From Frigoribacterium sp. CFBP 13712 (GTDB lineage Bacteria; Actinomycetota; Actinomycetes; Actinomycetales; Microbacteriaceae), in the NCBI RefSeq assembly GCF_014842255.1, contig NZ_JACYVH010000006.1, positions 104,869 to 168,868 on the forward strand: a DNA stretch of 64,000 bases. The letters run 5' to 3'. The notes beneath the pieces were generated by a model that saw only the letters and a list, made by a program, of their open reading frames with translations, had not been told where the DNA came from and searched no databases. Below, one piece after another: positions 149 through 63,973 of the stretch (position 1 is the stretch's first letter; each line of letters begins with the position of its first letter). The position numbers and the translations under genes were made by a program.

Positions 149-1579
149 ATGGACAACGTCGCCGCCGCCGTCGAGCGCCTCGGTCGACTGGCCGCCACTC
201 CCCGCATCGCCCGCCTGTCGGCCGCCTTCGCCGCCGCGGGTCACGAGTTCGCCCTGGTGGGCGGTCCGGTGCGCGACGCGTTCCTCGGGCACCGGGTCAA
301 CGACCTCGACTTCACGACCAGCGCCTCCCCCGATCAGATCCTCGAGATCGTCGTGCCGCTGGCCGAGGCCCACTGGGACGTCGGGCGCGAGTTCGGCACC
401 ATCGCGGCCCGGGTCGACGGCGAGGTCGTCGAGATCACGACCTACCGCAGCGACGTCTACGACGGCGAGACCCGCAAGCCCGTCGTCGAGTTCGGCGACA
501 CGCTCGAGGGCGACCTCGTCCGCCGCGACTTCACCGTGAACGCCATGGCGCTGCGCCTGCCCGAGCAGGTGCTGGTCGACCCGTCGGGCGGCGTCGACGA
601 CCTCCTGGCCCAGCGCCTCGCGACACCGGGCGCCGCCGTCGACAGCTTCCGAGACGACCCGCTGCGGATGATGCGGGCCGCACGGTTCACCGCGCAGCTC
701 GGCTTCGAGGTGTCGCCCGAGGTGCGCGAGGCGATGACGACCCGCGCCTCCACCCTGTCCATCGTCTCGGTCGAGCGCGTCGCCGACGAGCTCTCGAAGC
801 TGCTGCGCACCGCGACCCCGACCCCGGGCATCCGCCTGCTGGTCGACACCGGGCTCGCCGAGCACGTGATGCCCGAGCTCGCGGCGATGCGCCTCGAGGT
901 CGACGAGCACCACCACCACAAGGACGTCTACGAGCACAGCCTCACCGTGCTCGAGCAGGCCATCGGCTACGAGGCCGAGCGGCACCCCGGCGACTCCCCC
1001 GATCTCACGCTGCGTCTCGCCGCCCTGCTGCACGACTGCGGCAAGCCGGCCACGCGTCGACTCGAACCCGGCGGGGTCGTGACGTTCCACCACCACGACG
1101 TGGTCGGCGCCAAGCTCGCGAAGAAGCGGCTCAAGGCGCTGCGCTTCGACAACGACACGATCGCGGCCGTCCACCGCCTGATCGAGCTGCACCTCCGCTT
1201 CTTCGGCTACACCGAGGGCGGCTGGACGGACTCCGCCGTGCGTCGCTACGTGCGCGACGCCGGCGACCAGCTCGAGCGGCTGCACATGCTGACCCGCGCC
1301 GACGTCACGACCCGCAACCGTCGCAAGGCCGACCGCCTGGGCTTCGCCTACGACGACCTCGAGCACCGCATCGCCGACCTGCGCGAGCGTGAAGAGATCG
1401 ACTCGCTGCGACCCGACCTCGACGGCGACGACATCCAGAGGGTGCTCGGCATCGGCCCGAGTCGCGAGGTCGGCGAGGCGTACCGGTTCCTGCTCGAGCT
1501 GCGCACCGAGGAGGGGCCGCTGGGCGCCGAGGCGGCGACCGAGCGGCTGCTGGCCTGGTGGGGCGGGCGCGGGGCGTAG
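149..1579 (+). CDS. pcnA: CCA tRNA nucleotidyltransferase
   Basis: Adds or repairs the 3' CCA end of tRNAs in the cytoplasm. The N-terminal nucleotidyltransferase domain shows the family signature GGPVRDAFLG (about residues 37-46) followed by the catalytic NDLDF, then RRDFTVNAMA and the DPLRMMRAARF neck motif. An HD domain follows (VDEHHHHKDVYEHS near residue 252 and LLHDCGK about 40 residues on). Length, 476 residues, fits the actinobacterial family. I chose the ATG at 149 because relatives begin close to MxxVAAAVERL; a GTG at 131 in the same frame is possible, and neither has a clear Shine-Dalgarno site. The repeated 13-mer lies in frame at 739-751 and encodes TTRAST. The preceding 148 bases hold two cores of that word and no gene. 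Confidence 0.95.
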   Translation: MDNVAAAVERLGRLAATPRIARLSAAFAAAGHEFALVGGPVRDAFLGHRVNDLDFTTSASPDQILEIVVPLAEAHWDVGREFGTIAARVDGEVVEITTYRSDVYDGETRKPVVEFGDTLEGDLVRRDFTVNAMALRLPEQVLVDPSGGVDDLLAQRLATPGAAVDSFRDDPLRMMRAARFTAQLGFEVSPEVREAMTTRASTLSIVSVERVADELSKLLRTATPTPGIRLLVDTGLAEHVMPELAAMRLEVDEHHHHKDVYEHSLTVLEQAIGYEAERHPGDSPDLTLRLAALLHDCGKPATRRLEPGGVVTFHHHDVVGAKLAKKRLKALRFDNDTIAAVHRLIELHLRFFGYTEGGWTDSAVRRYVRDAGDQLERLHMLTRADVTTRNRRKADRLGFAYDDLEHRIADLREREEIDSLRPDLDGDDIQRVLGIGPSREVGEAYRFLLELRTEEGPLGAEAATERLLAWWGGRGA

Positions 1580-1691
1580 ACGAGCCGCGCCGTGCGGGTG
1601 CGGCGGAGCGGTCGGGCTGACCCGTGGACCCGGCCGCGCCTCCTGGCCAGGCCGACCCGCGCCTCCTCGGCGGTGCGGGTAGCCTGCATCG

Positions 1692-3119
1692 GTGTCCAAG
1701 CCTCTGAACTCCGCGATCGTCGCCGGGTCCGTCTGCGTCGCGATCGTCGCCGCCTCGGCCCTCGGCATCACCGCGTTCGGTCTCGCGAACTCGGGTCACT
1801 CCGGCCCGTCGCGTCCCGGTCCCGACGAGGATCAGACCACGGTGACCGTCCGCGTGTGGGATGAGACCGTCGCAGCCGGTTACGAGAAGTCGTTCGCGAC
1901 GTTCGAGCGCGACAACCCCGACATCGACATCGAGGTCGACGTCGTGCCCTACGGCGAGTACTTCACGACTCTCGCCGACGACGTCGAGTCGGGCGAGGCC
2001 GACGACATCTTCTGGTTGAACAGCTCGAACTACACGACCTACGCCGACGCAGGCGCGCTGCTCGACATCGACCGCGCGCTGGCCCGATCGTCGCGGGCCG
2101 CGTGGTCCCCCGCCGTCGTCGACCAGTTCACGACCGCCGACGGCCACCTCTGGGGCGTGCCCCAGCTGTCGGACGGCGGCATCGCGCTCTACTACAACGC
2201 CGATCTGCTGAAGCAGGCGGGCATCGACCCGGCCGCGCTCGACGATCTCACCTGGGTGGCCGGCGGCGGCGAGGGCGACACCCTGCTGCCCGTGCTGAAG
2301 AAGCTGACCCGCGACGCCGCCGGTCGCACCGCCGACGACCCGGCCTACGACGGCACCCCCGTGCAGTACGGCTACAACGCCGGCAACGACCTGCAGGCCG
2401 TCTGGTACGACTACCTGGCCTCGGCCGGCGGCGCCTTCGAGAACGACGACATGACTGCGTTCGCCTTCGACACCGAGGAGGCGCGGGTCGCCTTCCAGTA
2501 CGTGGTCGACCTCGTGCAGCAGGCGCGTGTCGCGCCTCCTGCGGCATTGACCAACGACGACGCCGACTTCAGTCGCGAGCAGTTCGCGGCCGGCAAGATG
2601 GCGCTCTTCCAGTCGGGGCTGTACAGCCTCTCGCCCGTGGCCGCCGGGGCCGACTTCGAATGGGGCGTCGCGCCGATGCCGGCCGGGCCCGAGGGTCGCG
2701 TGAGCGTGACGAACGGCATCGTGGCGGCCGGCAACTCGGCGTCGCCGCACCGCGACGACACCGCCAAGGTGCTCGCCTGGCTCGGCTCGACCGACGGCGC
2801 GAAGCACATCGGGGCCGACGGCGCCGCCGTGCCGGCCGTGCTCGGCGCGCAGGAGGGGTACTACGACCACTGGACGGCGCAGGGCGTCGACGTCCGGCCG
2901 TTCTTCGACGTGATCGACGACGGGCCGACCATCGCCGCGCCGAGCGACATCTACGGTCGCACCCAGTCGATCATCGAGCCGATCTTCGACGAGATGTTCG
3001 CCGGGCGGATCTCCGTCGAGGACGCCCTGGCGCGCGCGCAGAGCGAGGCGAACGCGGCGCTCGAGACTCCCCCGGCGGGCGACGAACCGGGCGACGGAGA
3101 CGACGGGGCATTGAACTAG
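1692..3119 (+). CDS. Extracellular solute-binding protein, family 1, without a transporter
   Basis: Resembles sugar-binding proteins of ABC importers: after an N-terminal hydrophobic segment (about residues 7-30) comes VTVRVWDETVAAGYEKSF, the usual first strand of the fold, then DNPDIDIEVDVVPYGEY, ADDIFWLNSS and a late FAAGKMALFQSGLY motif. There is no lipobox cysteine, so it is either secreted or held by an uncleaved N-terminal helix. The start is GTG. No permease or ATPase is adjacent; it sits between pcnA and the rpsF operon, so its partners must be elsewhere. The repeated word at 2474-2489 encodes EEARV inside the domain. Substrate unknown. Confidence 0.85.
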   Translation: MSKPLNSAIVAGSVCVAIVAASALGITAFGLANSGHSGPSRPGPDEDQTTVTVRVWDETVAAGYEKSFATFERDNPDIDIEVDVVPYGEYFTTLADDVESGEADDIFWLNSSNYTTYADAGALLDIDRALARSSRAAWSPAVVDQFTTADGHLWGVPQLSDGGIALYYNADLLKQAGIDPAALDDLTWVAGGGEGDTLLPVLKKLTRDAAGRTADDPAYDGTPVQYGYNAGNDLQAVWYDYLASAGGAFENDDMTAFAFDTEEARVAFQYVVDLVQQARVAPPAALTNDDADFSREQFAAGKMALFQSGLYSLSPVAAGADFEWGVAPMPAGPEGRVSVTNGIVAAGNSASPHRDDTAKVLAWLGSTDGAKHIGADGAAVPAVLGAQEGYYDHWTAQGVDVRPFFDVIDDGPTIAAPSDIYGRTQSIIEPIFDEMFAGRISVEDALARAQSEANAALETPPAGDEPGDGDDGALN

Positions 3120-3190
3120 GAGGCGCGAGCGGCTACCCTTGCAAGGTTGCGTGTACCCATGCGGTGCCCGTGACCATGAATACCCTCCTG

Positions 3191-3210
3191 TCACAGACCG
3201 TCTGTGACCG
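3191..3210 (+). promoter_or_regulatory. Hairpin in rpsF leader, candidate S6:S18 autoregulatory element
   Basis: An eight-base perfect inverted repeat (TCACAGAC, one central C, GTCTGTGA) ends 12 bases before the rpsF ribosome-binding site and is followed by CCG. S6:S18 heterodimers of many bacteria bind a hairpin with an exposed CCG in the rpsF leader to shut off translation; position and the CCG fit this, but the fold has not been tested. A strong AAGGAGG lies at 3220-3226. Confidence 0.45.
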
Positions 3211-3722: not shown

Positions 3723-4289
3723 ATGGCAGGCGAGACCGTCATCACAGTGGTGGGTAACCTCACCAGTGACCCCGAGCTGCGTTACACGCAGAACGGGCTC
3801 GCGGTCGCGAACTTCACCATCGCGTCGACCCCCCGCACGTTCGACCGCGCGTCGAACGAGTGGAAGGACGGCGAAGCGCTCTTCCTCCGTGCCAGCGTCT
3901 GGCGCGAGTTCGCGGAGCACGTGGCCAGCAGCCTCACCAAGGGCAGCCGGGTCATGGCTCAGGGGCGGCTCAAGCAGCGCTCGTACGAGACCAAGGAAGG
4001 CGAGAAGCGCACCAGCATGGAGCTCGAGATCGACGAGATCGGCCCCTCGCTGCGTTACGCGACCGCTCAGGTGACCCGCGCCTCCTCGTCCCGCGACGGC
4101 GCTGCCGGAGGCTCCTTCGGGGGCAACCGCGGCGGCGGCCAGCAGGGCCAGCAGGGTCAGGTCGGCGGCGGTCAGGCGCAAGAGCCGTGGGGTCAGCCCG
4201 CAGCCGCTCCGCAGGGTGGAAACACCTCGGGCGACGTGTGGAACACCCCCGGTGGCGGCGGCACCTACAACGACGAGACGCCCTTCTAG
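3723..4289 (+). CDS. ssb: Single-stranded DNA-binding protein
   Basis: Coats single-stranded DNA during replication, repair and recombination. The OB fold begins [20 protein letters not shown] and runs to about residue 115 ([21 protein letters not shown]); then comes a flexible Gly/Gln/Pro-rich linker and the acidic tip ending DETPF, the partner-docking tail. Length 188 fits actinobacterial SSB. It lies in the rpsF operon three bases after rpsF. The repeated genomic word at 4073-4088 encodes TRASSS exactly at the junction of the OB fold and the linker. Confidence 0.97.
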
Positions 4290-5151: not shown

Positions 5152-5166
5152 CGTCGTGGTGGGGGC

Positions 5167-7588: not shown

Positions 7589-9232
7589 CTATTGCGGAGC
7601 AGGCGCTTGCCTCGCCACGGCGCTGCCCGCCGCCAGGCTCTTGTTCGCATCCTCGAGCGCGCGCACGGCGTACTGCATAGCGAAAGACTCGTTCTCCTCC
7701 GTCACCTGTAACGAGCGAGCGAAATTTGTCCCTAGACGAGGTGGTGCCCCACGAAATACCGGCTGATCTGTCAGCTCTGGCGTCATAAAGTCCGGATAAG
7801 AAAGGCGAAGCCCCTGCCGCCGCGCCTGAGAATCGACACGAAGAAACACCTTGGATCCGAGTCGGAAAACAATGTATTGCTTTCGTGTCACAGCTTTGGC
7901 ACCTAGATTCACGAGCTGCTCCCGAATTCGCTCGAAGATGGCCATGTTTTCATCGCCCAGCGTGAAGAGTTCGTCGCCCGACTCGGGACCGGAGTCGTCA
8001 CCCGAATCGGCTTCTGACTGGTTAGATGCGGTCGTCTGCGAATACTTCATAGCCGCAAACACATCATCTCGGGTGAGCGTTTCGGGGAGGACGGCGTCCA
8101 TGTACTCCGCAAGATCTTCATCGCCACGCAGAGTGTTTAGGAAGTCGTAGTCGGATAGAAATCCGCTGTCTGGGTCCCACGATAGAGCGCGGTAGGTTGC
8201 CTTGAAAGCATCGGGCCATCGGAGTTGCATACCGATGACAGCAAGCAAGATCGATTTGTCCCCTTGGCCTCCAGAAGCGTCTCCCATGATGTGCTGAGCG
8301 ACGAGCATCGAGTTCACAAGTCGCTTCACCTGACGAGGATTCGTTCGAAGGGCGAGATGAACAACCGTCTTAAAAGTTTCCGCTTCCGCAGCATTTAGGC
8401 CGATGACGCCTTCCCAGCCAGCAATTACATCGTCAATCACGACGGCACTGCGTTCTGCTTCAGGAATTGAGAAGGGAATTTGAATGATTTTCTCGATAAA
8501 TTCAGGGGCATTGGCCGACGGGTACTGGTCTTTGATGGCATCAATCAAAACCTCATAGTCCAGAGCCATCACGAACACGAACCCCTGGACGTCAGTCAAG
8601 ACGTGAATTGCCTCCAAGATCCCAACGATCGTTCCCGGAGGGCACCGGTCAAGGTCATCGATAAGAACGATGATCCGCCTCTGCTCTTCACTTAGCTCGT
8701 CCCCGATCTCTTTCAGTCGGTAGTGCGGTACCTCGGCGCGCCGGCGCTCTGCGGGTTCGCGCCACGCCTGCGCTGCGCCTGACACTGCATTGCTGACGTC
8801 CGCCAGAGATACTCCTGGGATGGGCGTGGGCACGCCAATACCAGCGGTGATGGCCCGAATGCCACGCCCGATGGACTTCCAGAACAGACCCTTCTTGGTC
8901 GCCAGGGCTTCTTCCACTTCGTGCAGCAGAGGCACGAGAACGTTCGGGTCCCTCGCATATCGCCAGGCATCGAAGATGGCAACGGGTTGGTCGTCGCTTT
9001 CCAATTTATTCGCTAGAGCATTCAAGATGGATGACTTCCCGACGCCCCAGGACCCGTAGATCCCGACTGTGTACCTGGCTGGCACCCCGTTCAGAACTAC
9101 GGCGGCGAGAGTGTCCACATACTTCTGGTACCCGAGGCCAAGGGGCCGCCCGTCCGGACGGACTGGCTGGTCGACGAAGATCTTCAGGGCTGAGTCGGTG
9201 GCAGAAGCGCTCTGCAAGTTGATGTTGGGCAT
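7589..9232 (-). CDS. KAP family P-loop NTPase
   Basis: STAND-like ATPase of the KAP group. Walker A is GIYGSWGVGKSS (residues 57-68), followed by the KAP-typical FDAWRY (88-93) and Walker B IIVLIDDLDRCPPG (187-200); a later RTNPRQVKRLVN resembles the C-terminal lid region of the family. There is no strong membrane segment, only a weak Gly/Ala/Ile stretch near residues 120-145, unlike many KAP proteins with paired helices. I chose ATG 9232, which has AGGG eight bases ahead, over a TTG at 9259. Lower G+C than its neighbours and next to a decayed IS: acquired DNA. Known KAP proteins include the phage-exclusion protein PifA, so a defence role together with the 10138-12681 gene is a reasonable inference, not shown. 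Confidence 0.8.
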   Translation of the reverse strand: MPNINLQSASATDSALKIFVDQPVRPDGRPLGLGYQKYVDTLAAVVLNGVPARYTVGIYGSWGVGKSSILNALANKLESDDQPVAIFDAWRYARDPNVLVPLLHEVEEALATKKGLFWKSIGRGIRAITAGIGVPTPIPGVSLADVSNAVSGAAQAWREPAERRRAEVPHYRLKEIGDELSEEQRRIIVLIDDLDRCPPGTIVGILEAIHVLTDVQGFVFVMALDYEVLIDAIKDQYPSANAPEFIEKIIQIPFSIPEAERSAVVIDDVIAGWEGVIGLNAAEAETFKTVVHLALRTNPRQVKRLVNSMLVAQHIMGDASGGQGDKSILLAVIGMQLRWPDAFKATYRALSWDPDSGFLSDYDFLNTLRGDEDLAEYMDAVLPETLTRDDVFAAMKYSQTTASNQSEADSGDDSGPESGDELFTLGDENMAIFERIREQLVNLGAKAVTRKQYIVFRLGSKVFLRVDSQARRQGLRLSYPDFMTPELTDQPVFRGAPPRLGTNFARSLQVTEENESFAMQYAVRALEDANKSLAAGSAVARQAPAPQ

Positions 9233-9290
9233 TCCTAACACCCTGTCGTATTGCGACAAGTGGCGTCAACACGCATTAACTCGAATCGGT

Positions 9291-9824
9291 CGCGTCCCAC
9301 TTGGAATGCTTCGCTCGGCTCCAGCCCACGACGACTTCGTGCTCCGCGACTTCACCATCACGACGGAGAACCGGCTGTGGCTGACGGACACTACCGAGCA
9401 CGGGGCCGATGAGGGCCAGCTTCACTTCTGCCCGATTAAGGACGTCTGCTCGAGCCGAATTGTTGGGTATTCGACTCGCGGATGACTGCCAGGCTGGCCG
9501 TTGCAGCGCGCCGCAATGCAGTCGCTCTCGGCGCACCAGTCGGAACCAGGTTGCACTGAAACTGAGGATCCCAGTTCCGGTCGAGGAGGCCTATATAGCA
9601 ACTCAGGGAACTCGTGATCACCGGCGGGATGGGCCGAGTCGGTGCTTGCGCCAACAACGCCGCGGTCGAGTCGTCGTTTTCGCTGCTGCAGAAAGACGTG
9701 CTGAACAGGCAGCGGTGGCACTCGCCGCAGGACCTACCACCGCCGCAGGCGGCAACGAAGGCTCGGTCGGCTCACCCCGATCGAGTTCGAGACCATCAAC
9801 TCACACGCCGCTCAGGCGGCCTGA
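9291..9824 (+). pseudogene. Decayed IS3-family transposase (orfB) remnant
   Basis: Pieces of an IS3 integrase-type transposase can be read across frames. First, in one frame, DFTITTENRLWLTDTTEH and IKDVCSSRIVGYS, ending at a TGA at 9483. Then, shifted, LAVAARRNAVALGAPVGT, stop codons where the family has VHSDR, and GSQFRSR. Then, shifted again, GMGRVGACANNAAVESSFS and LLQKDVLNRQRW, and finally RLTPIEFETINSHAAQA before a TGA at 9822. At least two frameshifts and several stops make it non-functional. The 5' part of the element is missing; the right end may lie near 9840-9865. It separates the two island genes. Confidence 0.85.
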
Positions 9825-9865
9825 AAACCCTATATAAGACGAGTCAACGAAACTGACAGCAGTTC

Positions 9866-10137
9866 CATCCCGGAGGGGGATTCGAGACAAAGTTGCGACT
9901 GCAGATCAAATCTATGTCAAGCGAGGCCGATTCCTACACCGAGTTCGACGCTAAGTATGGACCTACGGCCCACTAACTGTGAGTCTTTCGCCGACCTCGT
10001 CGCCCGTCCTGTGCGCGAGGATGACGAGCACACCCACCCGGCAACTGAGGTGTTCTGATTAACGGATGTGAACTCGATGTGGTTCTCCTGCCCCACGACT
10101 CGCCCAACGGACTGGCTGTCACTACGGCGCAGAGTCG
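9866..10137. other. Intergenic stretch in island
   Basis: About 270 bases downstream of the IS remnant and of the 847-residue protein gene. Only short frames without recognisable similarity; no repeat, terminator or RNA gene seen. Confidence 0.4.
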
Positions 10138-12681
10138 CTACGCACGTGCGGCTGCGAATGAATCTGTCTCAATAAGCGATGTAACTTCCTCAGTCTCTCC
10201 TGCTACGGTTCTCCGCCCCCGCTGAGGGCGAATGGGAAACGAACGCCAGTACTCGTCGTACTCAGACTCGAAGCCGCGAAGAAATCGCAACACTTCTCCG
10301 GGGGCGGCAAAGACCGCACCCACAAAAATGTATTGATCCCGGCCAAGACTCGGAAGACGAAGCCACTCGTATGGAGATGGGGATGTAAAGATTATCTCCC
10401 GGCGATCACCCAAAAAAGTCGTCGTTGAGTTACCCCACCTATCCATCGTTGACTGTCCCAGCTCGAAGGTCGAACGCGCGCCCCCAATGCTCTCCAGCTG
10501 ACTTAACGCAGCTCGCGCTTTCTGGAGCGCCATTGTCAATTCTGAAAGAGAGGGCACCTTTTGCTTCGCGTGGAGAAGACCATTTCGGGCAGTCATGATT
10601 CCAGAGTCGTTTAAATCAGCACCGACCTGAGCAAAGACTTCCATCAACTTGACCTGCGACTCTGGCGTCAAGTCAAGAAACGGAACCGTGTGGTTGAAGG
10701 GAAACACCTGCAATTTCGTGCGCCCGACATACAGTGGTTTTTCATCTTCACTACGCCGAAAAGAGGCCTCTTGCGAGCGATAGCCCTCAAGAACCTTGGC
10801 CAGTCGAGAATAGCCTGCCACGAGTGACGACAAACTCGATTCACGCTGGAGGACGTAATTCGTTTCGCCATCGCCATCGCCATCGCCATCGCCATCGCTG
10901 TTACCGTCGCCGTCGCCGTCGCCGTCGCCGCTGTCGTTGTCGCCAGAAAGTATGCTAAAAGCGACTGCCTCGGCACGCGACTTTGCATAAACATATGGTT
11001 GGGCGTCGATAAAATGGTCGTTTGTGAGGGCCCAAGTACTGTAGACGAGTGAATCGAAGAGGTGCTCTTCAAGGGCTACAAAGTAGTTGCTAGAACGTGC
11101 TCGAATGTCGGACTCTGCGACGGATGCCCCAACGGAAGCGGTACGGACAAGCGTTTCGAGCTCGTCGTGTTCTTGCCAGTAATGAATTCTCGTGTCTCGC
11201 GGAGCCGATGGTGGCAAACCAAGACGCCAGAGAATGACCTTGATCATTTCCTCGTCTGACAAATCGTCGGCCACTCGAAGTTCTTCCCGAACCCTTTCCA
11301 CCGTCGAGCGTCGCGCGAAGAACAGGGTCCGAACCACATCCTCTGGAGGTGCTGACTTGAGGAACGACTCCAGACGCTCCTGCGCAGTTTGACCAGGACT
11401 CTCGCGGAGGGTCCACGCCAGGTCCTCCATGTCGGTAGCCGAATCGATGTCGAAAAGGGAACGAGCTAGTGCCGTCAACCTGAGTAGCGGCAGTTGGGGG
11501 TCATTCGAGACAAAGCGCACGCCGAGGTGGCTCATCTGAGCGCTCTGATGCCACATCCCAGAGGTAACACGTGCGTTGACTTTGGCATAACGTATCTCCC
11601 CCTCAGGCATCGTAATTTTTCCGTCCCTGATGCAAGCGTCCAGCAACGATGTGAGGGAAACATTCGTCTCTGTCAGCAACAGATGCATGACCTGAGCGCG
11701 ACTCATCTCGTCGACGTAAGACATAATCTTGCGCGGTAAACCCCAAGACAAGGCCTGGCTCCGCAGTCGACCGTCAGTACTATTCATTGCATAGGCGAGG
11801 AAGGAACGCAGCTCATCGTCCCCCAGCGCGTCACCGATCAAGTGGACAACGGTGGAAAGACTCTCAGCTTGTATCGGCTGTTTACGGTCATCGAGCAGAT
11901 CGCGGAAGTAACCATTCCAGTCCGACGCATCCACCGACACGGAACTGAGGATTTTGTCGAGAGCGGTGCGCTTGCGGTTTACTTCGGGTGCCATGCTCGT
12001 AGCGAGTTGCACGCCGTGTACGGCTGCGCACGCGTGATCTGCGCAATGCTGAAGTGGGATGAAAGTCCGCGGAGCAACACTCCTCCTGAAGTCAGTACGC
12101 TTGGCCCCGTAAGGGCCAACTAGATACGGACCTGCATGAAAGACGCCTTTGTCTGAGTTCTCGAGCAGAGAGACGGTTTCATCATGTGTCAAATACTCTC
12201 TTTCTTCCGAAAAGAGTTCCGCGCAGCGTAAGTAAAGTTCTTTTCCGAAGATGAATGGATAGCTGAGCAGGCCCGATGCGATCTCATCAGAAATCACTGC
12301 CGCTAAATTGCCATGGACAGTCGCTGAGACATCTACAAGAGGTTCTACATGCATCATGGCCAAAAGTGTCAGGACTTGCGCTTCGCGCGGATTAACCTTT
12401 TCCCGGGTAATGAGCGCCTGGCGAACCCCTTTTCCTGCCTCGGTCAAGACGATTGCACTACTCAGTTCGGGTGAGACTTTATAGTCAGCATGAATTATCG
12501 CGTCGCGAAGAAGACTAACGAGTGACAACAAGTCGAATAGGTCATCTTGCCAGGTTGTGTCCGAGAAGCGTTCCGCTAACTCGTTTTTTGTAAGCGGTGT
12601 TTCGCCATTCAAATTGCTACCCCCACTAGAGCTTGCAAGCAGTCCTTGCTTCGCGCTGAGTCTACTAACTTGAGCATCCAT
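10138..12681 (-). CDS. Large uncharacterised protein with HEPN-type R-X4-H motif
   Basis: 847 residues, not assigned to a named family. Visible: a helical N-terminus, a possible metal cluster HCADHACAAVH (His212, Cys213, His216, Cys218, His222), and a Gly-Asp repeat linker at about 578-606 encoded by a hexanucleotide repeat. Near the C-terminus, TARNGLLHAKQ in a helical context matches the R-X4-H signature of HEPN ribonucleases (Arg699, His704). Codon use and G+C are unlike the flanks. It lies upstream of and in the same orientation as the KAP NTPase, with an IS remnant between them. HEPN plus NTPase pairs are common in anti-phage and toxin systems, so that role is inferred. The start is ATG 12681. 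Confidence 0.6.
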   Translation of the reverse strand: MDAQVSRLSAKQGLLASSSGGSNLNGETPLTKNELAERFSDTTWQDDLFDLLSLVSLLRDAIIHADYKVSPELSSAIVLTEAGKGVRQALITREKVNPREAQVLTLLAMMHVEPLVDVSATVHGNLAAVISDEIASGLLSYPFIFGKELYLRCAELFSEEREYLTHDETVSLLENSDKGVFHAGPYLVGPYGAKRTDFRRSVAPRTFIPLQHCADHACAAVHGVQLATSMAPEVNRKRTALDKILSSVSVDASDWNGYFRDLLDDRKQPIQAESLSTVVHLIGDALGDDELRSFLAYAMNSTDGRLRSQALSWGLPRKIMSYVDEMSRAQVMHLLLTETNVSLTSLLDACIRDGKITMPEGEIRYAKVNARVTSGMWHQSAQMSHLGVRFVSNDPQLPLLRLTALARSLFDIDSATDMEDLAWTLRESPGQTAQERLESFLKSAPPEDVVRTLFFARRSTVERVREELRVADDLSDEEMIKVILWRLGLPPSAPRDTRIHYWQEHDELETLVRTASVGASVAESDIRARSSNYFVALEEHLFDSLVYSTWALTNDHFIDAQPYVYAKSRAEAVAFSILSGDNDSGDGDGDGDGNSDGDGDGDGDGETNYVLQRESSLSSLVAGYSRLAKVLEGYRSQEASFRRSEDEKPLYVGRTKLQVFPFNHTVPFLDLTPESQVKLMEVFAQVGADLNDSGIMTARNGLLHAKQKVPSLSELTMALQKARAALSQLESIGGARSTFELGQSTMDRWGNSTTTFLGDRREIIFTSPSPYEWLRLPSLGRDQYIFVGAVFAAPGEVLRFLRGFESEYDEYWRSFPIRPQRGRRTVAGETEEVTSLIETDSFAAARA
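10866..10945. repeat. Hexanucleotide tandem repeat inside coding sequence
   Basis: Runs of ATCGCC and then GTCGCC units on the plus strand, read on the minus strand as alternating Gly-Asp (interrupted by Asn-Ser). Slippage by one unit changes the linker length by two residues without breaking the frame. Confidence 0.9.
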
Positions 12682-13168: not shown

Positions 13169-13185
13169 GACCCGCGCCTCCTGAG

Positions 13186-15107: not shown

Positions 15108-15216
15108 CTCAATGCGGGGGGTGAGGTGGGTTGGGGCGCGTTTCGGGGCACTTCGATCGGCTCGGGGGGCGACCCGCGCCTCCTCGGCTGGGGTCGAGGG
15201 TGAGGGGCCCTGAGGC

Positions 15217-24573: not shown

Positions 24574-25731
<1,158 letters not shown>

Positions 25732-25904: not shown

Positions 25905-25923
25905 CGCAGGCTAACCTCGGGGC

Positions 25924-32970: not shown

Positions 32971-33011
32971 ATGGCGCATCCGCCCCGAGAACGCAGGAGG
33001 CGCGGGTCGCG

Positions 33012-38139: not shown

Positions 38140-38140
38140 G

Positions 38141-40851: not shown

Positions 40852-40873
40852 ATGGTGCGCGCCCCGGGAACGC

Positions 40874-40905
40874 AGGAGGCGCGGGTCGACCGACCCGCGC
40901 CTCCT
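40874..40905. repeat. Inverted pair of the 13/14-mer word
   Basis: AGGAGGCGCGGGTC and its exact complement 14-bp stem with a four-base GACC loop, 17 bases beyond the permease stop at 40922. It could act as a terminator-like hairpin but has no T-run. Confidence 0.9.
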
Positions 40906-40921
40906 CGGCTCCCGCAGGCGG

Positions 40922-52890: not shown

Positions 52891-52952
52891 ATGAACCGCG
52901 TTCGCGAAGATGAACCGCGATACATCGCAGTTCATCTTCGCGAACGCGGTTC
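52891..52952. repeat. Family A intergenic inverted repeat, copy 5
   Basis: ATGAACCGCGTTCGCGAAG arm followed by its mirror ending CGAACGCGGTTC; two mismatches near the centre. Follows the GH3 gene. Confidence 0.9.
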
Positions 52953-53063
52953 TTCGGTGCGGCGGCGGCGGACCCGCCGCGGGCAGCCAGGGGGATAACC
53001 CCCGCGCGGGTCTGGGTGCGGGCGTCATAGGGCCGCGCGGCGCACGTCGCGAGGATCGTAGGC

Positions 53064-53591
53064 ATGGAAGATCACGCCGCCCCCACCACGCCCACCACCA
53101 CCCGCCGCCGTCTGCGCGCCGGGGCGCTCGCCGCCCTCGGAGTCGCCGGCATCGCCGCCCTGACCGGCTGCTCGTCGATGGTCAGCGCCGCCGAGGAGGC
53201 CCTCGGCAGCGAGCAGGTGCAGCAGCGCCACTACGACACGTACGCCGATGCTCCGAGCTCGCGCACCTCCGACGACGTCGCCTGGTTCATGCCCGACTGG
53301 GTGCCCGCCGACGCCCGCGACATCGACGTGCGTCTCGACACCGAGCAGCCCGGTTACGAGCTGTCGTTCACCTCGGCGGAGGGTGTCGACCTCGACGCCT
53401 GCGAGCCCGTCGACGGCGATCTCGGCGGACCGGCGATGCCGACCGAGACGCTGCCGCAGCCCCTCCCGACGACCGGTCTCGTGTCGTGCGGCGACGGTCG
53501 CGTGACCGCCACCGTCGACGACCGCTGGGCCAGCTGGACGACCCTCGAGGCCGTGCCCGGCGACGACGGCGGCAGCACGCTGCGCCGCTGA
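53064..53591 (+). CDS. Hypothetical lipoprotein
   Basis: 175 residues: basic N-terminus, hydrophobic helix and lipobox LTGC (about residues 33-36), then an acidic domain with VAWFMPDWVPADARDIDVRL and two cysteines (DACEPVDG, LVSCGDG) likely paired. No known domain. GAGGA precedes ATG. It ends exactly where the 24-base array of the repeated word starts. Confidence 0.75.
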   Translation: MEDHAAPTTPTTTRRRLRAGALAALGVAGIAALTGCSSMVSAAEEALGSEQVQQRHYDTYADAPSSRTSDDVAWFMPDWVPADARDIDVRLDTEQPGYELSFTSAEGVDLDACEPVDGDLGGPAMPTETLPQPLPTTGLVSCGDGRVTATVDDRWASWTTLEAVPGDDGGSTLRR

Positions 53592-53677
53592 CCCGCGCCT
53601 CCGCGCCGGTCTCGACCCGCGCCTCCTCGCCGGTCTCGACCCGCGCCTCCTCGCCGGTGCCGACCCGCGCCTCCTCG
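53590..53677. repeat. 24-bp-period array of the repeated 13-mer
   Basis: Four copies of GACCCGCGCCTCC start at 53590, 53614, 53638 and 53662, exactly 24 bases apart, with spacers of the type TCGCCGGTCTC. The first overlaps the lipoprotein stop codon. No cas genes or long unique spacers, so not CRISPR. Confidence 0.95.
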
Positions 53678-53704
53678 ACCCCTCTCTCCGACAGGACCCC
53701 CCTC

Positions 53705-54493
53705 ATGACCCACCCCGCAGCCCACCCCGCCACCCGCACCAGCCGAGGAGGCGCGGCGCCCGTCGCCCGCGTCGAGAACGTCACGAAGTCGTTCGGCCTC
53801 GGCGACGGCCGCGTCGACGCTCTGCGAGACGTGTCGCTCGACCTCCGCGCCGGGCAGTTCACCGCCGTGATGGGCCCGAGCGGCTCGGGCAAGTCGACGC
53901 TCATGCACATCACCGCCGGGCTCGACCAGGCGACCTCGGGCCGGGTGATGCTCGGCGACACCGACATCACGCGCCTCGACGACACCCAGCTGACGCTGCT
54001 GCGCCGCCGCCGGATCGGCTTCGTCTTCCAGGCGTTCAACCTCGTGCCGACGCTCGACGTGTCGGCCAACATCGAGCTGCCGTTCCGGCTCGACGGCCGC
54101 CGCGCCTCCGTCGAGGAGCGCGCCTGGATCGACTGGCTCGTCGGCACCCTCGGCCTCGACTCGCGTCTGACGCACCGGCCGCATCAGCTCTCGGGCGGAC
54201 AGCAGCAGCGCGTCGCGATCGCCCGCGCGCTCGCCACCCGGCCCGATCTGATCTTCGCCGACGAGCCCACGGGCAACCTCGACTCGAAGGCCGGCCGCGA
54301 CGTGCTGGAGGTGCTGCGCACCGCCTCGCGCGACCACGGCCAGAGCATCGCCATGGTCACCCACGACCCCGTCGCGGCGAGCTACGCCGACCGCGTGGTG
54401 TTCCTCGCCGACGGACGCATCGTGCACGAGGTCGGCGCCAGCACGCCGGCCGAGATCTCGCAGGTCATGCTCGAGCTGGAGCGCGCCGCGTGA
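53705..54493 (+). CDS. ABC transporter ATP-binding protein, MacB/LolD-like
   Basis: 262 residues. Walker [11 protein letters not shown]-loop [13 protein letters not shown], signature [16 protein letters not shown], Walker [15 protein letters not shown]-loop VTHDP: all intact. The LDV/FNLVP style is that of ATPases driving FtsX/MacB-type permeases, here the next gene, which overlaps by four bases. Likely exports or displaces a lipid-like or peptide substrate. The N-terminal tail holds a core of the repeated word. Confidence 0.93.
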
Positions 54494-55985: not shown

Positions 55986-56051
55986 CTGCACCCCGTTTTC
56001 GGCGCTGCACCCCGATGGATGCGGGTGCAGCGCCGGGAACGGGGTGTCGCA
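55986..56051. repeat. Imperfect inverted repeat after the ABC permease gene
   Basis: Arms CTGCACCCCGTTTTCGGCGC and GCGCCGGGAACGGGGTG with inner CTGCACCCC/GGGTGCAG; single copy in the window, in the gap before the DUF1023 gene. Confidence 0.7.
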
Positions 56052-56130
56052 GGAGGCGCGGGGGACGCGGGCGGACGGGGTGTACCTTCAGAGGCACAGA
56101 CAAGTGGGTTCACGCGGGGGTGTGGTGGGC

Positions 56131-57978
56131 ATGACGACGATCGAGTTCGACGATGGCGCGGCCGATGCGTTGATCGCTGCGGCGGACGGGGCGTCGAGCG
56201 ACCTGGGTGAGCAAGCGTTCACGAACCGGTTCTCGGTCGAGGGCGTGGTGGCGGACTTCAAGGGCGCGTACGCGACTCTCTTCACGCAAGCCAACATCGT
56301 GCGATCCGAGGACACGCTGTCGTTGACTGGTGTGCTCACAGACCTGATGACTGCCGTGGGTGAGTCCAGGCGACAGGCTGACGACGAGCGTCAGCGTCTC
56401 TCCGACCTGTCTGACTGGAAGAAGCGAGAGGCCGAGCGCGAACGTCAGCGTGGATCTGGTGATGTGCTCCAGGAGTCTTCGGCGTTCGTCTCGGAGCTCG
56501 TCGACCGAAGACCGTCGGAAGTTCCGATCAGGGCGACGCCCATCTCCGTTGCCTACAGCGCCCGCGAGCGAAACCGCACACGTGGCGGTGCGTCCGGTGG
56601 AACCTCGTCAGCTGATCCAGACGTGCTGCGGACCTTCGTCGGCATGAGTCGAGCTTCCGATCTGAGCACGGCTCAGCACGTGATCCAGATGAAGAACGCT
56701 TGGACGCGTTTCGCGTCGGCATGCTCATGGGTGCCCATCGAGTCGTCGACGGCGATCACGAGTCTCGACACCCTCATGGCAGAGAACGCACTGGACGCGA
56801 CCTGGATCGAGGGGATCGCGGCGGAGTTCGATGCGGCGGGCGGCGCGTCACTGCCCGACCTGCGGCTGGATGGAGTGGTCATCACCGCCGCTTCACCGGC
56901 ACTCACCAAACTGCTGCAGCCCGGTCTCACCCCTGCTGAGGTCGCCGAGGCGTACGCGCTGCTGCCGCAGTCAGACGCATACATTGAAGGATTGCCGCTC
57001 GTTGCTCAGTACTTCCTGGCCAACCTGGACGGCGTCCCTGCGGTCTCGCGGGACGTTGCCTCCCGTGCCGTTCTGGATGCCGCCGTCGCGAATCCAGAAG
57101 CGGTAGCGCAGTTGATGGGAATCGTGCCGGACGGGCCGCTGGCCGAGCAGGACTTCGAGGAGCAGGTTGTCGCGCTGAGGAAGGCGGTGGACCAGGCCGA
57201 CCTAACGGCGAAAGAACTGCTCGGGCAGGATGGCGCCTCGAGCATTGCGCAGCTTGTCGGTTTTGGTGTGCACGACGGGGCCGTCGTGGCCGCCATCTCG
57301 CTTGGCGACCTTGACACCGCTTCCAACGTAACCGTGAACGTCCCAGGGATGAAATCGAACGCGGGGGAGATGAAGTCGGCGTTGACGGCAGCGGATGAGC
57401 TGGTCCGAGCCGCTGTGAGAGGGAACCCGGACGCTAGCTATGCCGTCGTCTCGTGGATGGGCTACAACTCGCCTAGTGAATTCGAAGTGGCGTCTCCCGC
57501 TCGTGCGTTGTCCGGGGCAGCCGAACTTGCGTCGTTCATGGACGGCCTGCATGAAAGTCGTGCCGACGTCCCGGCGGACTCATACTCCGTCATGGCCCAC
57601 TCATACGGTTCGACGACGACGTCGGAGGCATTGCTGCTGACCCAGCATCGTGTCGACTCGTTCATCTCCTACGGTTCCGTGGGGTTGACGAACGAAGCGA
57701 CGGTCTATGACCTCAACGCCGATGAGGTCTATGCGACTCAGGCCTGGGGAGACGGGCTCGCGCCTGTCGGGCTGGCTCTCGGTCTCGGTACGCGAACGAA
57801 CCCGACGATCGTCGACGGTGTGCACGTATTCTCGTCCGGGGCCGGACCGGGTACCGAGGCTGTGACGCAGCATGACATGTTCTTGGATTCCGGGTCCGAC
57901 CAGAACGGGTACCTCTCGGCGGACACGACATCCCTCAAGACCATCTCGCAGATCGTCGCTAATGGAAGACCGGACTGA
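56131..57978 (+). CDS. DUF1023-type alpha/beta hydrolase with helical N-terminus
   Basis: 615 residues. The N-terminal half is mostly helical with heptad-like charged stretches (ESRRQADDERQRLSDLSDW), resembling the WXG100/LXG-type domains that precede such proteins in Actinobacteria. The C-terminal half is the DUF1023 fold: ASNVTVNVPGMKSNAGEM, YAVVSWMGYNSPSEF, nucleophile elbow VMAHSYGS (Ser about 491), and a late His in TQHDMF. There is no Sec signal. Codon use is less biased than in the sugar clusters. It overlaps the first of four lipoprotein genes by one base (TGATG). Substrate unknown; secretion by a type VII-like route is inference. Confidence 0.8.
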   Translation: MTTIEFDDGAADALIAAADGASSDLGEQAFTNRFSVEGVVADFKGAYATLFTQANIVRSEDTLSLTGVLTDLMTAVGESRRQADDERQRLSDLSDWKKREAERERQRGSGDVLQESSAFVSELVDRRPSEVPIRATPISVAYSARERNRTRGGASGGTSSADPDVLRTFVGMSRASDLSTAQHVIQMKNAWTRFASACSWVPIESSTAITSLDTLMAENALDATWIEGIAAEFDAAGGASLPDLRLDGVVITAASPALTKLLQPGLTPAEVAEAYALLPQSDAYIEGLPLVAQYFLANLDGVPAVSRDVASRAVLDAAVANPEAVAQLMGIVPDGPLAEQDFEEQVVALRKAVDQADLTAKELLGQDGASSIAQLVGFGVHDGAVVAAISLGDLDTASNVTVNVPGMKSNAGEMKSALTAADELVRAAVRGNPDASYAVVSWMGYNSPSEFEVASPARALSGAAELASFMDGLHESRADVPADSYSVMAHSYGSTTTSEALLLTQHRVDSFISYGSVGLTNEATVYDLNADEVYATQAWGDGLAPVGLALGLGTRTNPTIVDGVHVFSSGAGPGTEAVTQHDMFLDSGSDQNGYLSADTTSLKTISQIVANGRPD

Positions 57979-58679
57979 TGAACGAAGTCAAGAACCAACG
58001 CCTGCATCATGTCGCCGCGTTGGTGGCGACGATCCTGGTGCTCGTGACGACAGGCTGCGGGACGAACGCGAAGAACGGAGATGACGTGGTGAGACAGGGT
58101 GGACGGGACGCCGCCGGGTTGACGCAGGCAGAGGTCGCCGGGATGTCGCTGGAAGACGAGTTCGGGTTGGCATCGGAGCGGTACGTCAAGATGCAGGGCC
58201 TGCTCGAGGAGGCGCAGCTACAGATCTCAGACGGCTCGTGGGTCTGGATCGGTGGTGATGTGCTCCCGGTCATGGGTGGGGCCAATGCGTACGGTGAGGC
58301 GCCTGAGGGTGCCAACGAGGACAACAGCTACTACGTCCGTACCAGCCGAAACGTCAAACTGAAGGGGACGACGGGCGAGCGTGCCGATCTCGATCCGATG
58401 ATCCAGTACTTCGACGAGAAGGGCTGGGAGTCGGGCAGCATGAAGATCGGCCGGAACTTCGAGGCCAGGGCCGACACCGGTGACGGGTGGTGGGTCATGT
58501 ACACGGTTCGACCTAACGGGCAGTACACGGTGGATGTGTACAGCGAGGTGTTCTGGACGAACGACTCGAGTGAGCTGCGTCTGGCGATCGGCAAGCGGGA
58601 CGTGACACCGTTTCCGCGCGAGTCTGTGCCGGGCGAATACGAACTATTCCCCTCGTGGAGCGATCCGGTTCAGCCTTAG
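57978..58679 (+). CDS. Tandem paralogous lipoprotein 1
   Basis: 233 residues: N-terminal hydrophobic helix with lipobox TTGC, then a shared domain GLTQAEVAGMSLEDEFGLAS, EEAQLQISDGSWVWIGGDVL, DPMIQYFDEKGWESGS, GDGWWVMYTVRPNGQYTVDV and end VPGEYELFPSWSDPVQP. The most divergent of the four. It starts on the last base of the DUF1023 stop codon. No known family; an immunity or inhibitor role for the hydrolase is inferred from position. Confidence 0.85.
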   Translation: MNEVKNQRLHHVAALVATILVLVTTGCGTNAKNGDDVVRQGGRDAAGLTQAEVAGMSLEDEFGLASERYVKMQGLLEEAQLQISDGSWVWIGGDVLPVMGGANAYGEAPEGANEDNSYYVRTSRNVKLKGTTGERADLDPMIQYFDEKGWESGSMKIGRNFEARADTGDGWWVMYTVRPNGQYTVDVYSEVFWTNDSSELRLAIGKRDVTPFPRESVPGEYELFPSWSDPVQP

Positions 58680-58682
58680 TTC

Positions 58683-59363
58683 ATGATCAGACCTGGGGGT
58701 GTTCTTCGAGCCGTAGTGCTGTCAGTGGTGACGGTGCTCGCGGTGGCGGGGTGCGCCTCCGGGGCGGGGTCGACAGGCGAGGATGCACGGGACGCGGCGG
58801 GGTTGACGCAGGCAGAGGTCGCTGGGATGTCGCTGGAGGACGAGTTCGGGTTGGCTGCGGACCGGTATTCGGAGATCGAGTCCGTGCTCGAAGAGGCGCA
58901 GCTGCAGGTGTCGGATGATGCGTGGCGGTGGAACGGCGGGGATGTGCTGCCGAGCGCGGGCGGTCCGGGGTCGTTCGGTGAGCCATTACCGGGGGCCGAT
59001 GGTGACAACAGCTATTACTTCCGTGTGGGTCGGACGCTTCGGCCGGAGGGTGCCAGTGGTGCGGTCGCTGGTCTCGAGCCGATGAGCTCGTACTTCGATG
59101 AGAAGGGGTGGAAGTACGGCACCCGCGAGAGCGGCACGAAAAGCGAGGTGCGCGCTGACACGGGTGATGGGTGGTGGCTGACGTACACGGTGCGTGACAA
59201 CGGGCAGTACTCGTTGGTCGTGTATAGCGAGCTGTACTGGACGAACGACGCGGGCGAGTTGCGACTAGCGATCGGCAAGCGGGACGTGACTCCGTTCCCT
59301 GAGGAGTCCGTGCCGGGCGAGCATGAGCCTTTCCCCACGTGGAGCGACCCGGTTCAGCCGTAG
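58683..59363 (+). CDS. Tandem paralogous lipoprotein 2
   Basis: 226 residues. Lipobox VAGC after a short signal (VVLSVVTVLAVAGC), then the same domain; the central part (LRPEGASGAVAGLEPMSSYF, GWKYGTRESGTKSEVRADTG) matches paralogue 4, while the end (LRLAIGKRDVTPFPEE) matches paralogue 1. Three bases separate it from each neighbour. Confidence 0.85.
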   Translation: MIRPGGVLRAVVLSVVTVLAVAGCASGAGSTGEDARDAAGLTQAEVAGMSLEDEFGLAADRYSEIESVLEEAQLQVSDDAWRWNGGDVLPSAGGPGSFGEPLPGADGDNSYYFRVGRTLRPEGASGAVAGLEPMSSYFDEKGWKYGTRESGTKSEVRADTGDGWWLTYTVRDNGQYSLVVYSELYWTNDAGELRLAIGKRDVTPFPEESVPGEHEPFPTWSDPVQP

Positions 59364-59366
59364 ATC

Positions 59367-60047
59367 GTGACGCGACCTGGGGGTGTTCTTCGAGCTGTGG
59401 TGCTGTCAGTGGTGATGGTGCTCGCGGTGGCGGGGTGCGCCTCCGGGGAGAGGTCGGCGAGCGAGGATGCACGGGATGCCGCGGGGATGACTCAGTCGGA
59501 GGTGGCTGGGATGTCGCTGGAGGACGAGTTCGGGCTGGCGGCTGAGCGGTATGTCGAGATGCAGGGCGTGCTCGAGGAGGCGCAGGTGCAGCTCTCGGAC
59601 GGCTCATGGTTCTGGAACGGTGGTGACGTGCTTCCTGTCGCAGCGGGGGCCGACGCGTTCGGCGAGGCGCTGCCTGGTGCGGACGATGACAACTCGTACT
59701 TCTTCACAGCGGGGAGGATTCTCGAGCCGGAGGGTGCCGAGGGTGAGCGGGCGGATCTCGATCCGATGATCGCGTATTTCGACGAGAAGGGCTGGGAGTC
59801 GGGCAGTCGCGAGATCGGCCGCAATTTCGAGGCGAGAGCCGACAGCGGTGACGGGTGGTGGGTCACCTATACGGTTCGTCCGAACGGCCAGTACTCCCTC
59901 GCCGTGTACAGCGAGCCGTTCTGGACGAACGACTCGCGTGCGTTGTTCTCGGCGATCGCCGATCGTGATCCGGCCGATTTCCCGCAGGAGTCCGTGCCGG
60001 GCGAGTACTCGCCGTTCCCTTCGTGGGACGACCCGGTGCGGCCGTAG
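59367..60047 (+). CDS. Tandem paralogous lipoprotein 3
   Basis: 226 residues, GTG start. Signal and lipobox nearly identical to paralogue 2; central part (GERADLDPMIAYFDEKGWES, IGRNFEARADSGDGWW) matches paralogue 1; the end (FSAIADRDPADFPQESVPG) goes with paralogue 4. Confidence 0.85.
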   Translation: MTRPGGVLRAVVLSVVMVLAVAGCASGERSASEDARDAAGMTQSEVAGMSLEDEFGLAAERYVEMQGVLEEAQVQLSDGSWFWNGGDVLPVAAGADAFGEALPGADDDNSYFFTAGRILEPEGAEGERADLDPMIAYFDEKGWESGSREIGRNFEARADSGDGWWVTYTVRPNGQYSLAVYSEPFWTNDSRALFSAIADRDPADFPQESVPGEYSPFPSWDDPVRP

Positions 60048-60050
60048 ATC

Positions 60051-60731
60051 GTGATGCGATCTGGGGGTGTTCTTCGAGCGGTGGTGCTGTCTGTGGTGAC
60101 GGTGTTCGCGGTGGCGGGGTGCGCCTCCGGGGCGGGGGCGGCAGGCGAGGACGCACGGGACGCGGCGGGGTTGACGCAGGCGGAGGTCGCCGGGATGTCG
60201 CTGGAGGACGAGTTCGGGTTGGCTGCGGAGCGGTATTCGGAGATCGAGGCCGTGCTCGAGGAGGCGCAGCTGCAGGTGTCGGACGATTCGTGGCGGTGGA
60301 ACGGCGGGGATGTGCTGCCCAGTGCGGGCGGTCCGGGGTCGTTCGGTGAGCCTCTGCCCGGCGCGGATGGAGACGACAGCTACTCCTTCCGAGCAGGCCG
60401 ATCACTCCGGCCCGACGGTGCCAGTGGTGCGGTCGCTGATCTCGAGCCGATGAGTTCGTACTTCGATGAGAAGGGGTGGAAGTACGGAACCCGTGAGAGT
60501 GACACGAAGAGCGAGGTGCGCGCCGACACCGGTGACGGATGGTGGCTGACGTACACGGTGCGTGACAGCGGGCAGTACTCGTTGGTCGTGTACAGCGAGT
60601 CGTACTGGACGAACGACTACAGCGCCTTGCTCGCTGCTGTCGCTGATCGGCTCCCGACCGACTTCCCTGAGGAGTCTGTGCCAGGCGAGTATGAGCCTTT
60701 CCCCTCGTGGAGCGACCCGGTTCGACCGTAG
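60051..60731 (+). CDS. Tandem paralogous lipoprotein 4
   Basis: 226 residues, GTG at 60051 (ATG at 60054). Nearly a copy of paralogue 2 up to about residue 190 (ERYSEIEAVLEEAQLQVSDD, WRWNGGDVLPSAGGPGSFGE), but with the 3-type end (LLAAVADRLPTDFPEE). Last gene of the run; the convergent CobW-like gene follows 19 bases on. Confidence 0.85.
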   Translation: MMRSGGVLRAVVLSVVTVFAVAGCASGAGAAGEDARDAAGLTQAEVAGMSLEDEFGLAAERYSEIEAVLEEAQLQVSDDSWRWNGGDVLPSAGGPGSFGEPLPGADGDDSYSFRAGRSLRPDGASGAVADLEPMSSYFDEKGWKYGTRESDTKSEVRADTGDGWWLTYTVRDSGQYSLVVYSESYWTNDYSALLAAVADRLPTDFPEESVPGEYEPFPSWSDPVRP

Positions 60732-62401: not shown

Positions 62402-62484
62402 GTGAGCACCGGTGGACGCGCGCCAGCACCTTCGCCCCGCGGTGAGTGCGGTGTCGGCTCGACCCGCGCCTCCTCGGCCCGGCT

Positions 62485-63657: not shown

Positions 63658-63743
63658 GCTCGGTCCTGACGTCGGGGGTGCGCGGGGGCGCGGGGTGGTC
63701 GGGTGCACGGGTTGTCGGGTACAGCATGGCGCGCCTGCCGGGG

Positions 63744-63895
63744 TGTGCAAATCGCGACCGTTCCGGCGGTTCGGGGCGTCATAGCCCGGTTCTTCGCAGT
63801 GCGTGAGCGTGCACAGGTCGGGTTCGGCCCGCCGGAGCAGCCGCGCGCGGTCGCGATTTGCACAGATCCGGCTGGCGGCGGTCGCGATTTGCACA
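63744..63895. repeat. Three copies of a 17-base word, one inverted
   Basis: TGTGCAAATCGCGACCG at 63744-63760 and its complement at 63848-63864 and 63879-63895, in the gap upstream of the dehydrogenase gene. Could be a binding-site cluster or part of an intergenic repeat family. Confidence 0.85.
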
Positions 63896-63913
63896 GGCAG
63901 GGGGCGGGGCGGT

Positions 63914-63973
63914 CGCGACCCGCGCCTCCTCGAGTCGTCAGCGCTGCGCCGCGCCGAGGAGGCGCGGGTCGCG
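63914..63973. repeat. Inverted pair of the 13-mer, 19-bp arms
   Basis: CGCGACCCGCGCCTCCTCG (63914-63932) and its exact complement (63955-63973) around a 22-base loop. The rest of 63896-64000 has no gene within the window. Confidence 0.9.

Follow-up and report, generated by a model that had tools for sequence, protein, structure and literature searches.

A short iterated DNA word with uptake-sequence-like properties in the actinobacterial genus Frigoribacterium

Introduction

Why does one 13-base word, GACCCGCGCCTCC, recur again and again in a stretch of bacterial chromosome where hardly a single copy would be expected? The question is raised by 64,000 nucleotides of the genome of Frigoribacterium sp. 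CFBP 13712 (Microbacteriaceae; contig NZ_JACYVH010000006.1, positions 104,869 to 168,868), which we call the window. An original prediction, made from the letters of the window, had described the word as scattered far above chance and had suggested that it was an uptake or recognition sequence, a chromosome-organising site or a self-spreading micro-repeat. We compared the word across its own genome (G000), the 16 Frigoribacterium genomes of the comparison set (G000 to G015) and other genera. It has a largely rigid core, is conserved site by site between species and takes lineage-specific forms. Of the three suggested roles, uptake or recognition appears the best supported, as a resemblance only, and we lean towards a word that works like a DNA uptake sequence (DUS) with dialects, that is, a self-recognition tag.

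Results

The word greatly exceeds expectation and is concentrated in one genus

All 27 exact copies that had been listed in the window are present, 18 on the forward strand and 9 on the reverse, compared to 0.027 expected on both strands together under a third-order Markov model (0.017-0.149 across orders 1-5) trained on the window itself, word copies included. One of the stated positions is off by one, since the copy given at 32995 starts at 32996; the end of the last copy is at 63970. Ten further copies have one mismatch, and the many shorter forms that had been claimed are also evident, with CGCGCCTCC occurring 75 times and GCGCCTCC 90 times. Across the whole genome (3.16 Mb) there are 553 copies, 298 forward and 255 reverse, and none of a control in which the word was written backwards. 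A 399-kb sample of this genome contains 56 copies relative to an expectation of 0.18 (order 3) or 1.46 (order 6). The word is therefore neither close to its Markov expectation nor confined to the window, where its density (0.42 per kb) is higher than the genome average (0.175 per kb).

The 13-mer was found in all 16 Frigoribacterium genomes searched, at 141-553 copies each. G000, G002 and G007, which are draft assemblies of 40, 80 and 10 contigs, contain 553, 444 and 475 copies, respectively. In a survey of 396 genomes of the order, each of the 395 other than our own had nine copies or fewer. Among 120 genomes of the family, three were of the same genus, two belonging to the genus g139 had 58 and 60 copies, and the remaining 115 had 0-6, so that the word is present in a related genus and rare in the other genomes surveyed. 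The form CGCGCCTCCTCGG occurs 169-321 times in Frigoribacterium Leaf8, MEB024, PhB116 and Leaf186, the genomes behind the best protein matches (89-90% identity) to the CCA-adding-enzyme-like gene at 131-1579 of the window, and 2-11 times in six genomes of other genera. Six viral contigs have an 18-mer form once each, which is uninformative. A text search of the literature returned no occurrence of the 13-mer string, and a literature search returned no interspersed repeat in Microbacteriaceae and no overrepresented DUS in Actinobacteria.

A core with looser flanks takes different forms in different lineages

The 13-mer represents one version of a motif whose core is CGCGCCTCC and whose consensus is CGACCCGCGCCTCCTCGGC. 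Around 319 such cores, information ends about 8 bases upstream and 6 bases downstream, the flanks (CGAC...TCGGC) are looser than the core, and alignment around the cores found no homology beyond about 20 bases. The 12-mer CCCGCGCCTCCT has 110 exact copies in 542 kb of G000. Alongside these, six core positions, picked after inspecting the variant table, show 5 one-base variants relative to about 7.7 expected, and most core positions thus have no cloud of decaying copies.

Dialects are evident within and beyond the genus. G006 often has CACCGCGCCTCCTG, which G000 has too, while in G015 the form CGCCTCCT is kept and the 5′ side is looser. Genus g139 has the related word CACCGCGCCTCCAGGCC, and CTGGAGGCGCG occurs there 16 times per 100 kb relative to 0.3 expected. 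Ten of these 16 sites are intergenic where 11.1% of the sample is called non-coding, and three 25-base inverted pairs are present (samples of g139 and Frondihabitans were decoded with the codon model of G000). We consider the combination of changed letters with the same placement habits in g139 to be the most telling finding, though it involves 16 sites. The best 8-mer in five word-bearing samples had a z score of 12.8-24.7, whereas 80-kb samples of Diaminobutyricibacter and Clavibacter had weaker words, with a best z of 7.7 and 9.0.

The sister genus Frondihabitans was considered as another dialect and was rejected as a plain case. Frondihabitans sucicola has its own word, GATCCTGC(GC), with GATCCTGC occurring 124 times relative to 23.8 expected, but only 14 of the 124 fall between genes and a single reading frame prevails, so it is not counted as the same system. 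The 10-mer GATCCTGCGC has 619 copies in Frondihabitans relative to 11-69 in 17 other genomes. Separately, a further repeat, TTCCTGAAT / GGCGGGTTCC, is enriched in the G015 sample, where its complement ATTCAGGAA was seen 15 times relative to 0.08 expected.

Copies are enriched between genes and lie on both strands

Genes were called with a home-made codon-model decoder that reads foreign stretches as non-coding, which makes intergenic shares approximate, and that misreads the strand in the tandem array at 53.6 kb. A 542-kb part of G000 contains 91 13-mers, of which 46 are intergenic, 19 lie in genes in the sense direction, 24 are antisense (four of these being array copies with unreliable strand) and 2 are at gene borders, in agreement with the claim that the word occurs in both orientations between and inside genes. 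The non-coding share of the same sequence is 16.2% of bases, which corresponds to a roughly threefold intergenic enrichment. The in-gene copies mostly translate to TRAS or EARV. Per kb, there are 3.75 cores between convergent genes, 2.89 between codirectional and 1.06 between divergent ones, compared to 0.447 within genes. Codirectional intergenic cores lean to the upstream stop codon (30, 18, 13, 15 and 8 by fifths of the gap), and 122 of 146 intergenic cores lie within 400 bases past a stop, 36 of them within 10, counts that were made with no random control. An exact inverted partner is found within 45 bases of 29 of the 146.

Two regularities that had been put forward for checking were not found. 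Even spacing was rejected, as the distribution is random (mean 1.6 kb with cores less than 100 bases apart merged; coefficient of variation 0.94; variance/mean 1.03). Strand bias about the origin and terminus is absent along the replication arms of the two closed genomes, G015 (92 of 187, p 0.88) and G006 (107 of 217, p 0.89), and by local GC skew (p 0.46 and 0.59). The origin was assumed to be at the CCA gene, which in G000 lies within about 15 kb of genes that we take, by eye, to be DnaA-, ParA- and ParB-like. The copies in the window are as follows.

739-751, forward: in the CCA-adding-enzyme-like gene 131-1579 (Pfam PolyA_pol), sense
1654-1666, forward: intergenic, 75 bases past the open reading frame (ORF) 131-1579
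2477-2489, reverse: in a solute-binding-protein gene, antisense
4073-4085, forward: in a gene that we take by eye to be ssb, sense
13169-13181, forward: called intergenic; a stretch that the decoder reads as non-coding ends here
15171-15183, forward: intergenic
16206-16218, forward: in a gene, antisense
18838-18850, reverse: in a gene, antisense
23670-23682, forward: in a gene, sense
24739-24751, forward: in a gene, antisense
26638-26650, reverse: in a gene, antisense
26928-26940, forward: called intergenic, just past the called gene 25923-26924
29031-29043, forward: in a gene, sense
30905-30917, forward: intergenic; another core follows 15 bases on, in a 15-base tandem unit (30907-30941)
31919-31931, reverse: in a gene, antisense
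32996-33008, reverse: intergenic
34214-34226, reverse: at the border of two called genes
40875-40887, reverse, and 40892-40904, forward: inverted pair in a called intergenic stretch, able to form a long hairpin
52632-52644, reverse: in the beta-xylosidase/alpha-L-arabinosidase gene 49708-52848, antisense
53590-53677, forward: four copies (53590, 53614, 53638, 53662) in a 24-base tandem array within the ABC-transporter ORF 52910-54493
62461-62473, forward: called intergenic
63917-63929, forward: called intergenic
63958-63970, reverse: called intergenic, opposite in direction to the copy at 63917

Individual sites are conserved between species

G000 and G007 are 84.9% identical over 175.8 kb. 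In this comparison the core is identical at 24 of 34 intergenic sites (control 59 of 258) and at 46 of 62 in-gene sites (control 1777 of 5794), which is 71-74% relative to 23-31% for 150 control 9-mers; a further 64 intergenic and 84 in-gene cores are omitted as unaligned, most of them falling beyond the G007 stretch that was fetched. Pooling ordered genome pairs, which are not independent, in one 20-kb region, the core was kept at 50 of 64 sites in the clade of G000, G002 and G007 (control 382 of 899), 310 of 361 in a seven-genome clade (control 3356 of 6064), 38 of 57 in a four-genome clade (control 1112 of 2360), 10 of 23 in a two-genome clade (control 134 of 426), and 122 of 290 between the first two of these clades (control 1434 of 5542).

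In the 20-kb syntenic alignment of the 16 genomes, and among the sites listed, the copies at 2477 and 4073 were gained or lost by base changes at fixed columns. At 2477, the 13-mer is present in G000, G007 and G002, while six genomes keep GCGCCTCC but differ upstream, two of these with the 9-base core, and seven have no aligned sequence. All 16 genomes align at 4073, where seven have CCGCGCCTCC, G002 has the 9-base core, and G001, G004, G005, G006, G009, G012, G013 and G015 have other bases. Among core sites that changed between G000 and G007, all 16 in-gene orthologues align without gaps, and changed in-gene copies thus arise by substitution; gaps were present in 3 of 10 changed intergenic orthologues. 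Seven of these 26 changed orthologues are one change away from the core and 19 are further away, compared to 996 and 1162 of 2158 for 80 control words, in a test that has only 26 sites.

Competence genes are present throughout the genus

ComEC was found in all 16 Frigoribacterium genomes, as was an ATPase of CpaF/TadA size, which in G000 sits within a Tad locus. G000 also has ComEA (SLBB and helix-hairpin-helix domains) beside ComEC. ATPases of the PilB/PilT type and N-methyl pilins are present in 13 of the 16 genomes, the others being G000, G002 and G007, which are mutually closest by their CCA gene (92% relative to at most 89%). As this clade keeps the word, its upkeep does not seem to need a type IV pilus, and it is unlikely that a ComP-like pilin reads the word in these genomes. 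In other genera, 14 of 16 genomes had a PilB-type match, and in the five of these 16 where the word was counted it is rare. The type IV pilus is therefore disfavoured as the cause of the word.

Other features of the window

Some parts of the window have few or no cores. One such region is used here for contrast:

8001-12000: 56.7% G+C, zero cores, read as non-coding by the codon model

It lies in a low-G+C island (7589-12681) containing an ORF for a KAP-family P-loop NTPase (7589-9259, reverse) and a large ORF (10138-12681, reverse) for which no family scored over its cut-off. At 57978-60731 there are four tandem ORFs of 226-233 aa that are alike by eye and have lipoprotein-like starts; the two that were scanned had no Pfam match. 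They are preceded by an alpha/beta-hydrolase ORF (Abhydrolase_8, 56044-57978), and 56-60 kb contains one core.

A second, unrelated dispersed element is found near 5160, 32902, 40783, 45840 and 52884. It is an imperfect palindrome of about 60-70 bases with arms ATGAACCGCGTTCGCGAAGATGAACCGCG ... CTTCGCGAACGCGGTTCAT, and is REPIN- or MITE-like. Five of its six copies in 542 kb of G000 fall in the window, and all 12 arms are called intergenic. Samples of G007, G006, G015, g139 and Frondihabitans contain no copy of its arm word.

Discussion

The resemblance to DNA uptake sequences

We favour, by a modest degree, the explanation that the word works like a DUS with dialects, because its properties match those of neisserial uptake sequences as set out in the portions of PMC2397512 and PMC3630211 available to us. 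The core would be read by a DNA-binding protein that belongs to the competence apparatus and sits at the surface or in the membrane, and DNA from kin would in consequence be imported preferentially. Imported fragments bearing the word would then recombine and replace alleles in which it is damaged, by which copies would stay exact and accumulate. In the clade of the window the reader may belong to the Tad (Flp) pilus, ComEA and ComEC route, since a search of its genomes found no type IV pilus genes. What the data show directly is how abundant the word is, its restriction among the genomes searched, its dialects, placement, rigidity and conservation, the lack of arm bias and the lack of type IV pilus genes in one clade. 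That a protein recognises the word, that it takes part in uptake, that recombination maintains it and that the Tad/ComEA route is used are steps that we infer.

Several observations weigh against this explanation. The neisserial DUS is read by a type IV minor pilin, ComP, and neither PilB/PilT-type genes nor N-methyl pilins were found in the draft assemblies of G000, G002 and G007, nor did the analysis find any reader protein for the word. Other genera also commonly have type IV pilus and Tad-size ATPases, and thus the machinery does not explain the restriction of the word. The searched literature contained no report of natural transformation, uptake, competence or binding for Frigoribacterium. 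DNA that is not shared is not significantly poorer in sites (5 in 14.1 kb relative to 92 in 165.9 kb of shared DNA, p 0.45). One-base variants are common overall, with 53 one-mismatch 13-mers in the 399-kb sample and 188 variants of the 12-mer in 542 kb relative to 15.8 expected, nearly all of the latter at the ends. Within the core, the second G of CGCG is variable (8 variants relative to 1.0 expected), and the rigid positions were chosen post hoc. Finally, intergenic copies within 80 bases of stops favour one strand, the sense strand, by about 2:1, a preference not required of a signal that acts purely as DNA. The favoured strand is the one that keeps AGGAGG out of the mRNA, and the resemblance to Shine-Dalgarno sequences may explain the preference.

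Alternative explanations

The main rival is a lineage-specific protein of the nucleoid or of chromosome organisation that would bind the word, with selection at each site and dialects that track the protein. We regard this as unlikely, though more probable than the other alternatives. Noc, SlmA, MatP and SMC-loading sites organise chromosomes in other bacteria, and strong conservation per site together with a rigid core would fit direct selection. The word also persists in the clade where type IV pilus genes were not found. In closed G006, none of 68 18-mers falls in 1,916,230-2,487,010, a gap of about 570 kb that is about opposite the origin (referenced to the CCA gene at 0.368 Mb). This gap concerns the 18-mer only, since five 20-kb samples within it have 7, 6, 0, 2 and 3 cores. 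The three samples with fewest cores are lower in G+C, fit the codon model of the genus poorly and may thus be acquired DNA. No such gap exists in G015, where 10 cores lie at 1.99 Mb, close to the presumed terminus. The lack of strand bias on the arms and the random spacing also argue against this rival, and known chromosome-organising sites are more degenerate and are counted in tens, as opposed to hundreds up to a thousand.

Copying of the word for its own sake, by gene conversion or another mechanism and with no benefit to the cell, is improbable. Tandem and inverted copies do exist, and the share of changed orthologues that are several changes away looks as if copies were gained or lost in one step. 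Nevertheless, no REP- or MITE-type extended homologous unit was found outside the word, most aligned sites are kept between species, no excess of variants was seen at rigid positions, and the changed in-gene orthologues are free of gaps, which disfavours the micro-repeat of the original prediction; the gaps among changed orthologues are intergenic. We give very little credence to an RNA-level element at gene ends, such as a terminator, an anti-Shine-Dalgarno sequence or a decay signal. Intergenic copies do cluster past stops with the sense preference described above, and the inverted pair folds strongly (40855-40925, -52 kcal/mol, z -5.69), but the in-gene copies include 19 sense and 24 antisense ones, few intergenic cores have an exact inverted partner, and no Rfam family scored over threshold in the window. 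The match to Shine-Dalgarno and anti-Shine-Dalgarno sequences that had been pointed out is probably incidental, because in-gene copies occur on either strand. Equally hard to credit is an iterated word like HIP1, made and held by a modification enzyme and biased repair: the genus-wide occurrence on both strands, in and out of genes, would suit it, but the word is not palindromic and is enriched between genes.

Significance

Neisseriaceae and Pasteurellaceae are the established examples of sequence-specific self-recognition in DNA uptake, and an uptake-sequence role here, if true, would add a third case, independent of these two, from a Gram-positive phylum, and with it a new system in which to look for readers. 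The three genomes that keep the word and in which type IV pilus genes were not found would then be a natural experiment separating upkeep of the word from the pilus, and if the Tad/ComEA route holds, lineages of this family would have their own DNA passport. Should the reader instead be a nucleoid protein, the word would mark an unusually dense sequence-specific chromosome-organising system. On either explanation, the word can be used as bait for its own reader.

Comparison with known systems

Chi is, like the word described here, short, iterated and non-palindromic. Chi is biased by replication strand, whereas our word has no such bias. The uptake signal sequence (USS) of Pasteurellaceae is an iterated self word on both strands that has a core with looser flanks; these features are shared, while the sequence, phylum and cell envelope differ. 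Its reader was called unknown until a prediction described in PMC12616744, according to the portion available. HIP1 of cyanobacteria is likewise a highly iterated, clade-wide word, but it is palindromic and tied to methyltransferases (PMC4390886, in the part available), and our word is not palindromic.

In Micrococcus luteus, transformation depends on a Flp/Tad pilus (PMC6370729, in part). The genus studied here has the corresponding ComEC and Tad-size ATPase in every genome, with ComEA and a Tad locus in G000. The portion available of PMC4322843 makes no mention of an uptake sequence or DUS for M. luteus, which differs in this respect. It is possible, though we put it at somewhat under an even chance, that Gram-positive Actinobacteria evolved an uptake-sequence system with dialects separately from those of Proteobacteria, and that it is read by a component of the Tad pilus or of ComEA type, not by a type IV minor pilin.

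The closest likeness is to the DUS of Neisseriaceae. The word would not be filed as a member of that family, as the likeness is a resemblance only and a reader of the neisserial type was not found here; our word is a different one, in a G+C-rich Gram-positive actinobacterium, in a clade where no type IV pilin system was found. The available parts of PMC2397512 and PMC3630211 describe neisserial uptake sequences as forming inverted terminator pairs, spaced at about 1,500 nt, conserved in permissive surroundings and divided into dialects, with new copies that are too diverged for point mutation. With these our word appears to share a short, fixed, non-palindromic form, hundreds of copies on both strands, enrichment between genes and in inverted pairs, conservation above that of the surroundings, a spacing of about 1.5 kb and lineage dialects.

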